Shown here piece by piece: positions 5,581 to 12,849 of a stretch of DNA of 29,459 nucleotides. Each line of letters starts with the position of its first letter. Within the stretch, counting starts at the first letter, position 1. The DNA is from Candidatus Auribacterota bacterium. Lineage in GTDB: Bacteria; Auribacterota; JAFGBW01. The DNA lies in assembly GCA_016932965.1 (NCBI GenBank), contig JAFGBW010000224.1, positions 1-29,459 on the forward strand, written 5' to 3'. A program made the position numbers and the translations under genes. The notes under the pieces were generated by a model, which saw nothing but the letters and a program-made list of their open reading frames with translations, was not told where the DNA came from and did no database searches.

Positions 5581-5585
5581 AAGGA
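5581..5585 (+). promoter_or_regulatory. Shine-Dalgarno site supporting a TTG start
   Basis: AAGGA sits 8 bases before TTG at 5594. The nearby ATG at 5589 runs into a stop after two codons (ATG AAT TGA), so TTG is the best start in frame. Confidence 0.6.
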
Positions 5586-5593
5586 ATAATGAA

Positions 5594-7219
5594 TTGAACT
5601 TTAAAAGTTCAGAACTTTTCAACGAATATGAAATCAAACTGCTGGCCCCGTTTGTGACGAATACGGATCAGTCCATTTTTGCCTTAAAAAATCTGCCTGA
5701 GGTCATCAAAGGCGCCCTGTTTTCCCGATATTCCCGTTCAAAACTGGGATTACGTTCCTTACTATTAAAGGAGTTCATCTGCTCCGCTGAGAGCGGGTTT
5801 AATGAAATGGCCAAGAATGTCTCTGACAAGGAAATATTCAAGGAAGACTATATTAAAAAAGCTCAAGACTTCTATGACAGGGTGCTGGATGGTTACGGAG
5901 ATGACTCCATAGGAGAACTAGGCGGAGCACACCTGGCCCTCGAAGACATTTCCATTTTAGCGACCAAAGTTTTGGAAGATGCCCGAATTGGCGGATCCCC
6001 TCTTGAAAAATCAACCCGGTACATTTATTTTGATGAAAAAATCAATGGCGATTACCGTTTTCTGAAAGAACCTGTTCTCATGGATTCCCCCTTCAAGGAA
6101 CTGTATCTTTCCACGTGCCGTTTCCTCTTTGACACCTATTCCTCTCTGGTGAAACCTCTGAGCAGCTATGTAGAAAAGATGAATCCTGCCGAAACAGATC
6201 CGGTTTCGCCGGCTTATAAAACTTCCGTGCGAGCCAGGGTCTGTGATTCATTGCGCGGATTATTACCTACTTCCACTCTCACCAACATGGGCATTTTCGG
6301 CAACGGACGTTTTTTTGAGTCTCTGCTGCAGCGGCTTTCTGTTTCGAATTTACAAGAAATTCAGGAGATCGGTAACAGGGCATTTCAGGAACTTCAAAAG
6401 GTCGTTCCTTCTTTTATCCGCAGAGCGGATTCTTCTCACCGCCATTATACCTCCTGGTCCGAATTCTTTCATAAGCAGGAAGCTCATTTGAAACAGGCCG
6501 CGGAAAAAATAATAGTGTCTCTTCACGAACATACCCCCCCCTCCTTAGAATCGGTCCGGTTAACGGATCATGACAAAGACGCCGAATGGAAAGTGGCAGC
6601 CGCTCTTCTGTATCCTCATGTTTCTTTTTCTTTATCCGAGCTCAGGCAACAAATGCACTCTTCCTCCGGATATAGATGGAAGGATCTTTTCCAAACTCTT
6701 GCCAATGAGAGGCAAAATAGGAGGCATAAACCGCCCAGGGCGCTCGAACATGCTGATTACACCTTTGACCTCTTGGCGGACTTCGGCATGTTTCGCGATT
6801 TGCACCGCCACCGCATTCTGACTCAGGAACGCCAAAAGCTGTCCACTTCATTAGGATATATGGTTCCTGAGGATGTTCTGATGTCAGGACTGGAAAAACC
6901 CTATCGCAGCGCTTTGGACCAAGCGGCCTCAGCTTATGAAAAAATCAACGTTCATTTCCCCCATGAAGCCCAGTACGTGGTTCCTCTTGCATACAGGATT
7001 CGCTGGTATTTCAAGATCAATCTCCGGTCGCTGATATGGATGTGTGAATTACGCTCCATGCCGCAGGGGCATATCCATTACAGAAAAATGGCTCAGGAAA
7101 TAGCGAGAAAAGTGATGGAAGTGCATCCCGGCTTTATACCGTTTTTTAAATTTATGGATTTTGATGATCATGCTTTGGGGCGTTTGGATCAAGAAAAGAA
7201 GAAGGGAAACAAAAATTAA
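5594..7219 (+). CDS. tandem ThyX-like protein (divergent flavin-dependent thymidylate synthase family)
   Basis: 541 aa, about twice the ~220-250 aa of ordinary ThyX, and apparently two ThyX-fold halves. The C-terminal half is clear: ALEHADYTFDLLADFGMFRDLHRHR (~383-407) aligns with the ThyX strand-helix ending in RHR (405-407). NLRSLIWMCELR (~476-487) aligns with the dUMP/FAD-binding RSLxxFLxLR. The N-terminal half is weaker: GDDSIGELGGAH (~102-113) aligns with GHxSxxEH, and SPLEKSTRY (~135-143) with the SxxExSxRY end of the signature. The C-half reads RHRILTQERQKLS, so the canonical RHRxxSxNxxSxRY Ser is lost; residues of one signature appear split between halves. The family (COG1351-like) is recognised; whether it makes dTMP is unknown. 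Start is TTG with a good Shine-Dalgarno. gmd follows after 15 bases. Confidence 0.75.
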   Translation: MNFKSSELFNEYEIKLLAPFVTNTDQSIFALKNLPEVIKGALFSRYSRSKLGLRSLLLKEFICSAESGFNEMAKNVSDKEIFKEDYIKKAQDFYDRVLDGYGDDSIGELGGAHLALEDISILATKVLEDARIGGSPLEKSTRYIYFDEKINGDYRFLKEPVLMDSPFKELYLSTCRFLFDTYSSLVKPLSSYVEKMNPAETDPVSPAYKTSVRARVCDSLRGLLPTSTLTNMGIFGNGRFFESLLQRLSVSNLQEIQEIGNRAFQELQKVVPSFIRRADSSHRHYTSWSEFFHKQEAHLKQAAEKIIVSLHEHTPPSLESVRLTDHDKDAEWKVAAALLYPHVSFSLSELRQQMHSSSGYRWKDLFQTLANERQNRRHKPPRALEHADYTFDLLADFGMFRDLHRHRILTQERQKLSTSLGYMVPEDVLMSGLEKPYRSALDQAASAYEKINVHFPHEAQYVVPLAYRIRWYFKINLRSLIWMCELRSMPQGHIHYRKMAQEIARKVMEVHPGFIPFFKFMDFDDHALGRLDQEKKKGNKN

Positions 7220-11518: not shown

Positions 11519-11977
11519 ATGCTTAAACTCACGAGTATGAAAAAACAAGGATTTACACTTGTAGAAATGATGATTGTACTTGCTATACTAGGATTATTAC
11601 TGGGATTAGGCATACCTGGTTTTCTCAGAGCTAGAGACAGGGCAAGAAGGGATACCTGTGTTAATAATTTAAGAATGATAGAGCATGCGAGTGATCAATA
11701 CAGAATTGACAATAACATGGCGGTGACGGCATCAACCAGAATCACCTGGTTATGGCCATCGAGTTCAGCTTCTGATGTTAAAGATGTCTCTTCTTATATC
11801 AATCGCCAGTTATTTTGTCCTTCACGAGGAACGTATAAAGGCGGCACCAATGCAGGTGGAGTCCCCACTGATGATTCACTTGAGGCAAATGCGGTACCGC
11901 ATTGCGTCACACCATCCAACAGTTCAACGATCACTGCGCCAATGCCGGATTTCCGTCATGAAATTTCAAACAGTTAA
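11519..11977 (+). CDS. type IV prepilin / pseudopilin-like protein 1
   Basis: 152 aa. An 11-residue leader (MLKLTSMKKQG) ends at the prepilin peptidase site G|FTLVEMM, with the conserved Glu at +5. A hydrophobic helix follows (VEMMIVLAILGLLLGLGIPGFL), then a short globular domain. It would be cleaved and N-methylated by PilD-type peptidase and assembled into a type IV pilus or type II secretion pseudopilus. The globular part shares the WP...SYI.RQL.CP...Y....C outline with the next two genes but is longer and ends in a Ser/Pro-rich tail. The Shine-Dalgarno (AAGGA) is well spaced from ATG 11519; ATG 11537 is a less likely start. No pilus ATPase or peptidase is encoded nearby. Confidence 0.85.
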   Translation: MLKLTSMKKQGFTLVEMMIVLAILGLLLGLGIPGFLRARDRARRDTCVNNLRMIEHASDQYRIDNNMAVTASTRITWLWPSSSASDVKDVSSYINRQLFCPSRGTYKGGTNAGGVPTDDSLEANAVPHCVTPSNSSTITAPMPDFRHEISNS

Positions 11978-12012
11978 TTAACATAATAACAAGGAAAAGA
12001 AAGGAGACACAT

Positions 12013-12387
12013 ATGAGAAAAATAAAAGGTTTTACGCTGGTCGAGATCATGATTGTAGTGGCTATCTTAGGATTGCTCATCGCAATCGGAGTACCAGGCT
12101 TTTTAACAGCGAGAAATAAAAGCCGAAACAGGACAGAAGGCGCGAATCTGAAAGCCATAGCGGATAATATTGCTTCTTATGGCGTCAATGAAAGACAGTC
12201 CGTAGATGTCATTCTGCGTTTATGGCCGTCAGCTTCCACGATTTCTGATCCGGGCTCCTATATCAGGAGACAGCTTTTATGCCCGATCAATAAAGTGGCC
12301 TATTCAGTTGATAATGCCACCAATATTGGTTCCTGTACAGTCCATGGTCTTGAAAGCATGGTCGCTGCAAGATTGGGAGGAGAATAA
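12013..12387 (+). CDS. type IV prepilin / pseudopilin-like protein 2
   Basis: 124 aa with a 6-residue leader (MRKIKG) then FTLVEIMIVVAILGLLIAIG, the classic class III signal with Glu at +5. The first 35 residues are identical to prepilin 3 and the whole protein is about 78% identical (97 of 124 by eye), so the two arose by tandem duplication. Conserved features are the RLWP...SYIR.QLLCPINK.AY block and two Cys in the mature domain (LLCP and GSCT), which could form a disulfide as in other short pilins. A strong Shine-Dalgarno (AAAGGAGA) is present. A terminator follows the stop, so this is probably the end of a two-pilin transcript. Confidence 0.88.
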   Translation: MRKIKGFTLVEIMIVVAILGLLIAIGVPGFLTARNKSRNRTEGANLKAIADNIASYGVNERQSVDVILRLWPSASTISDPGSYIRRQLLCPINKVAYSVDNATNIGSCTVHGLESMVAARLGGE

Positions 12388-12409
12388 TATCACTATTATT
12401 CTCGAACAA

Positions 12410-12444
12410 AAGGTGCTTCCCCTATCAGGGAAGCACCTTTTTTT
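12410..12444 (+). terminator. strong Rho-independent terminator between pilin genes 2 and 3
   Basis: AAGGTGCTTCCC (12410-12421), loop CTATCA (12422-12427) and GGGAAGCACCTT (12428-12439) form a perfect 12-bp stem. An uninterrupted T-run follows to 12444. Partial read-through would make the downstream pilin a less abundant product of the same transcript. Confidence 0.88.
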
Positions 12445-12474
12445 ACGCAAGTTATTCACCCAAGGAGGGAAAAC

Positions 12475-12849
12475 ATGCGAAAAATAAAAGGTTTTACACT
12501 GGTCGAAATCATGATTGTGGTGGCCATCTTAGGCTTGCTCATTGCAATCGGAGTGCCTGGTTTTTTAACAGCAAGAAATAGAAGCCGAAACAGGACTGAA
12601 GGCGCAAATCTGAAAGCCATCACAGATAATATTTGTTCTTACGGCATCAACAACAGACAGCCTTTGGATGATATCATTCGTCTATGGCCAACCGTTTCCA
12701 CTATTTCTGATCCTGAATCTTATATCAGAAAACAGTTGTTGTGCCCGATCAATAAAACAGCTTATCAGATTGATTCAGTAACCAATTTAGGTTCCTGTAC
12801 CACTCATGGTATGGACAGCACGATTATCGCAACTTTGGGTGGAGATTGA
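12475..12849 (+). CDS. type IV prepilin / pseudopilin-like protein 3 (duplicate of 2)
   Basis: 124 aa with the same leader and first helix as prepilin 2. Differences concentrate in the globular part: an added Cys at residue 54 (NICSYG versus NIASYG), ICSYGINNRQPLDD, and a changed C-terminus. The LLCP and GSCT cysteines are kept. Shine-Dalgarno AAGGAGGG is close to consensus. It lies after the 12410-12444 terminator, so it needs read-through or its own promoter, which I could not identify in the 30 bases between. The TGA stop abuts the stop of the opposing glycosyltransferase gene (TGATCA). Confidence 0.88.
   Translation: MRKIKGFTLVEIMIVVAILGLLIAIGVPGFLTARNRSRNRTEGANLKAITDNICSYGINNRQPLDDIIRLWPTVSTISDPESYIRKQLLCPINKTAYQIDSVTNLGSCTTHGMDSTIIATLGGD

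Follow-up and report, generated by a model that had tools for sequence, protein, structure and literature searches.

Can a protein that carries the catalytic signature of the flavin-dependent thymidylate synthase ThyX whole in neither of its two halves still be a thymidylate synthase? The question is raised by an open reading frame at positions 5594-7219 of the forward strand of the window, the whole 29,459-nucleotide stretch of Candidatus Auribacterota DNA analysed here. The frame encodes 541 residues with two Thy1/ThyX domains, and the contiguous ThyX signature is absent. A preliminary description had offered two readings: a tandem protein that combines complementary half-signatures in a pseudo-dimer, or a flavoprotein with another reaction. 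The product is very likely a Chlamydia-type tandem flavin-dependent thymidylate synthase whose two halves share composite sites and which would be the sole visible dTMP route of the cell. As predicted from its sequence, it would have an ordinary enzyme activity in an unusual architecture, with no new reaction.

The TTG start and the length of 541 residues noted at first reading were both confirmed. The start is plausible because AAGGA, a probable Shine-Dalgarno motif read at 5581-5585 of the forward strand, lies 8 nt before it, and because the ATG at 5589 is out of frame relative to the thyX frame and runs into a stop after two codons.

The claim of two ThyX-like halves in 541 residues is borne out by Pfam matches, profile alignment and fold. 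Pfam Thy1 (PF02511) matches the protein in two stretches at 144.4 bits (gathering score 24.8), and in the genome scan the C-half (92 bits) and the N-half (55.9 bits) each exceed the 24.8-bit cut-off. Both halves were resolved by alignment profile and fold search, not by single-sequence search. Compared as single sequences, the halves show hardly any similarity (blastp E 1.2), and phmmer of the window protein alone against the PDB gives weak matches to the C-half only (E 0.005); compared as profiles, the halves align with an hhalign probability of 97.5 (E 6e-12). AlphaFold2, given the window protein and 31 relatives, produced a model with a mean pLDDT of 88.6 and a pTM of 0.86. In VIA-align, residues 317-526 of the model (6542-7171, forward strand; Pfam Thy1 at residues 325-512) superpose on T. 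maritima ThyX with a Z of 17.4 over about 190 residues at 2.2-2.4 Å, and residues 20-283 (5651-6442, forward strand; also matched by Pfam Thy1) superpose on M. tuberculosis ThyX with a Z of 13.9 over 205 residues at 3.0 Å. These matches to ThyX chains argue that both halves of the modelled protein are ThyX domains. The PDB chains matched are all 216-270 residues long, with no tandem ThyX structure among them; by PDB titles, the fold matches include 3ge9 and 3fnn from C. glutamicum and 4p5a and 4p5b of PolB, a UMP/dUMP methylase. The NCBIfam thyX equivalog TIGR02170 scores the window protein at 63.6 bits and a Chlamydiaceae tandem at 56.4, both below its cut-off of 87.9; three other tandems score above it (96-140).

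The canonical hallmark, a single domain with a contiguous RHRxxSxNExSxRY, is here divided over two halves. The motifs read earlier are present at the residues reported: R405-H406-R407-I-L-T-Q-E-R-Q and R478-S-L...E-L-R487 in the C-half, and S135-P-L-E138-K-S140-T-R142-Y143 in the N-half, where D129-A130-R131 (5978-5986) replaces RHR in the alignment to ThyX. The division was followed through 115 distinct tandem ThyX proteins and 26 single-domain ThyX proteins at the positions of R78, H79, R80, S88, R90, Y91, R147 and R174 of T. maritima ThyX; the numbering of the reference sequence was checked at 16 known positions. The window N-half keeps S140, R142 and Y143, the equivalents of S88, R90 and Y91, which lie in the dUMP-binding and catalytic set E138-K-S140-T-R142-Y143 (6005-6022), together with R221 (6254-6256), the equivalent of R147. 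The C-half keeps the FAD- and dUMP-binding R405-H406-R407 (6806-6814), the equivalents of R78, H79 and R80, and R487 (7052-7054), the equivalent of R174, for which a part in dUMP activation is known. Each set is found in its own half only: the N-half has L248 (6335-6337) at the site of the catalytic R174, and Q411-E-R413-Q-K415-L416 (6824-6841) is the degenerate counterpart of S-x-R-Y in the C-half. All of these features lie on the forward strand.

The same division runs through the tandems as a class. R78, H79, R80 and R174 are each retained in 115/115 C-halves, and N-halves retain S88 and R90 in 115/115, R147 in 114/115 and Y91 in 113/115. The complementary set is complete in 112 of the 115 tandems and the reciprocal set in none; all eight residues are present in every one of the 26 single-domain proteins. 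Reciprocal positions are mostly lost: most N-halves have L, C, M, F, A or S at the R174 site, and C-halves usually have P, H, L, D, E or G at the R90 site. A further position, equivalent to T55 of T. maritima and Ser71 of M. tuberculosis, through which another subunit contributes an FAD contact in canonical ThyX, is S105 in the window N-half (5906-5908, forward strand); it is S or T in 114 of the 115 N-halves and Arg in 84 C-halves. Since the eight key residues (S140, R142, Y143 and R221; R405, H406, R407 and R487) are all invariant across 13 diverse tandems, the pattern in the window protein lies far beyond chance. The preliminary description had called the signature split or altered. By these alignments it is split, the residues being partitioned between the halves, and the notion of random alteration falls away.

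For canonical ThyX, the UniProt/HAMAP annotation places R147 and S88 on one subunit. The canonical site lies between subunits: in the M. tuberculosis enzyme, subunit A supplies RHR and Arg199, subunit C supplies Ser105, Arg107 and Tyr108, and subunit B adds Ser71 and Arg190 (PMC6514825). T. maritima R174, S88 and Y91 take part in activating dUMP and transferring the methylene group (PMC8316439). The residues held by tandem C-halves match the A-type set exactly, and those held by N-halves match the C-type set exactly. The proposal of complementary half-signatures in a pseudo-dimer is strongly supported, because the partition in 115 tandems, the ThyX fold predicted for both halves and the known make-up of the canonical site all agree with it. 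Two ThyX domains are fused, and each has retained only the part of the catalytic set that the other has lost, such that an N-half and a C-half would have to come together to make a catalytic site. From this we infer the quaternary structure and the number of sites. C-halves would stand in for canonical subunits A and D, and N-halves for B and C. Two tandem chains paired in this way would form a pseudo-tetramer in which two composite sites are live, one C-half and two N-halves contributing to each, and the other two sites are dead. Canonical enzymes such as T. maritima TM0449 and the M. tuberculosis FDTS have the fold and, in total, the eight residues in common with the window protein. They differ in being homotetramers of subunits of about 220-250 residues, each with all eight residues and with four equal sites, whereas the tandem spreads the eight over two fused domains and is predicted to have two sites per dimer.

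An alternative without shared sites would make the C-half catalytic alone, with a relaxed S-x-R-Y segment, and leave the N-half a structural or regulatory role. The stronger Pfam score of the C-half (92 against 55.9 bits) and its retention of RHR and the R174 equivalent are in keeping with such an arrangement, but the N-half equivalents of S88, R90 and R147 are as invariant (114-115 of 115) as the RHR of the C-half, the corresponding C-half positions vary freely (P, H, L, D, E or G at the R90 site), and a merely structural domain would not retain precisely the dUMP-binding residues. We regard this alternative as very unlikely.

Genome content also bears on function. The source genome, a draft of 300 contigs, is 92.6% complete. 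The check for thyA or a canonical thyX suggested earlier detected neither: a PF02511 scan of this 92.6%-complete genome found no second Thy1 protein, and ThyA, dihydrofolate reductase (PF00186) and thymidine kinase (PF00265) were likewise not detected in it. Tandem ThyX occurs in 76 of the 384 bacterial genomes sampled. ThyA co-occurs with it in 0 of the 76, against 19.8 expected across the 384 genomes, a comparison uncorrected for kinship of genomes, and 74 of the 76 lack any Thy1 match beyond the two of the tandem itself. The tandem would make dTMP from dUMP with FAD, NADPH and methylene-tetrahydrofolate and would be the only visible dTMP route of the cell; another synthase could sit in the missing part of the genome. 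Separately, ThyX is absent from 18 of the 44 genomes of the phylum to which the window belongs. In a wider set, some ThyX-less genomes (among them G103, G244, G090, G234 and G075) have weak ThyA-like matches only, of 30-76 bits over profile positions 80-225 in frames of 250-600 residues, possibly representing divergent ThyA.

The closest link to a studied enzyme runs through Chlamydiaceae. Griffin et al. in 2005, as cited in PMC8316439, reportedly dealt with the catalytic mechanism of C. trachomatis ThyX. Judging by the Chlamydiaceae genome G296, C. trachomatis itself presumably has the tandem form. G296 was taken as Chlamydiaceae because it encodes the chlamydial major outer membrane protein at full length (PF01308, E 2e-230). 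Its tandem ThyX (L069, 529 residues) shares 51% identity with the window protein across 521 residues and has the same N-half and C-half residues, down to D-A-R in place of RHR; like the source genome, G296 is without ThyA. It differs in belonging to another phylum, and its sequence has diverged from that of the window protein by about half. The C. trachomatis enzyme itself was cloned and served in an assay of NADPH oxidation (PMC3498832). As the sole detectable synthase of its genome, with a 51%-identical Chlamydiaceae relative and with the C. trachomatis enzyme assayed, the window protein very probably has thymidylate synthase activity.

The reading as a ThyX-derived flavoprotein with another reaction, such as that of another nucleotide methylase or an NADPH oxidase, holds that the signature was lost once dTMP synthesis was no longer the job of the protein. 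Neither half has the whole signature, and relatives with the ThyX fold and other roles exist (PolB, 4p5a and 4p5b; C. glutamicum, 3ge9 and 3fnn). Every catalytic residue is nevertheless kept once per chain in 112 of the 115 tandems, no thymidylate synthase besides the tandem was detected in the source genome, ThyA never accompanies a tandem in the 76, and a close relative is of the Chlamydiaceae type. Residue retention and the status of sole synthase led to the rejection of a different flavoprotein function, which has little probability left and, of the two readings first proposed, is the one that finds no support. Placement among proven enzymes with conserved catalytic residues, which had been named as a finding that would tell against the initial proposals, was largely observed; it speaks against another reaction and not against the pseudo-dimer. 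That the frame is a pseudogene or an assembly chimera is highly improbable: the assembly is a draft of 300 contigs and the gene has chlamydia-like proteins as its nearest relatives, which the gene of an order-mate does not, but the 541-codon frame is intact and preceded by a ribosome-binding site, its key residues are all in place, the genome is otherwise without a detectable thymidylate synthase, and relatives of similar length are 51-52% identical over the full length, for which reason a chimera was rejected.

With the tandem thymidylate synthase as the preferred reading, its relatives indicate how widely the architecture is spread. Tandems range from about 450 to 590 residues in total, a range that includes the window protein. 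They also occur in Microcystis phages, in the Tunturiibacter phage Tunturi_5 and on dozens of contigs from IMG/VR, many longer than 200 kb. The phage proteins Ma-LMM01 gp020 (Microcystis phage) and Tunturi_5 gp50 (PHROG 36506) have the same architecture and residue split and are annotated as thymidylate synthase; they differ in being phage-borne and only 25-26% identical to the window protein. The IMG/VR relatives were found by pattern scans with sub-alignments A2 and A3, alignment A1 being too diverse; IMG/VR scans with P0001 alone or with single phage or bacterial proteins returned nothing or no relatives. Two tandem frames in bacterial genomes (G294:C18:29507-30871 and G322:C76:2250-3641) contain one internal TAA each and may be split genes or sequencing errors.

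Identity to the chlamydia-like tandems L069, L072 and L009 is 51-52%, and in the tree the window protein clusters with L069, L072, L087 and one IMG/VR contig (support 100/99). The tandem of the order-mate G001 is 22% identical and placed apart. Grouping with chlamydia-like tandems and away from that of the order-mate suggests that the window thyX was probably acquired by horizontal transfer. A second form, here named type II, accounts for 18 of the 115 tandems (for example L043 and L144) and has the same complementary split; its N-half motif is SHPxYNSEQVSQRY, its C-half motif DSQDQRHRMTP, and it forms a separate deep clade (support 100, starred). Type I N-halves, type I C-halves, type II N-halves and type II C-halves are each a starred clade. 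All N-halves group together, as do all C-halves, yet these two groupings reach a support of only 82-83, for which reason one ancient fusion behind types I and II is favoured on the tree and no more than that; type II tandems could also stem from a convergent second fusion. Tandem ThyX is probably a large and ancient class (76 of 384 genomes and many large phages) with subfunctionalised halves and obligate composite sites, forming a two-site pseudo-tetramer whose two dead sites may be kept for regulation or stability, the roles of the halves having been fixed once before types I and II diverged or twice convergently.

ThyX is an antibacterial target, and inhibitor design uses canonical ThyX structures. 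In bacteria with tandem ThyX, including Chlamydiaceae, two non-equivalent domains would together form the pocket and the number of sites should differ, and a solved tandem structure would be informative, as none was found. Probable thymidylate synthases escape notice when the RHRxxSxNExSxRY motif, or the NCBIfam cut-off, is used to find them. Because ThyX sites are already built between subunits, fusion would have split the residues along an existing line, making the tandems a clean natural example of subfunctionalisation in a homo-oligomer with shared sites. The half-site architecture is the interesting part, the activity itself being already known. No description of the half-site split was found in the literature searched, and Griffin et al. 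(2005) or Leduc et al. (2004) may contain one.

Elsewhere in the window, positions 11519-12849 hold three adjacent prepilin-like frames, with N-termini GFTLVEMMIVLAILGLL / GFTLVEIMIVVAILGLL, that form a small pseudopilin gene cluster. Two of the three are nearly identical at the start.
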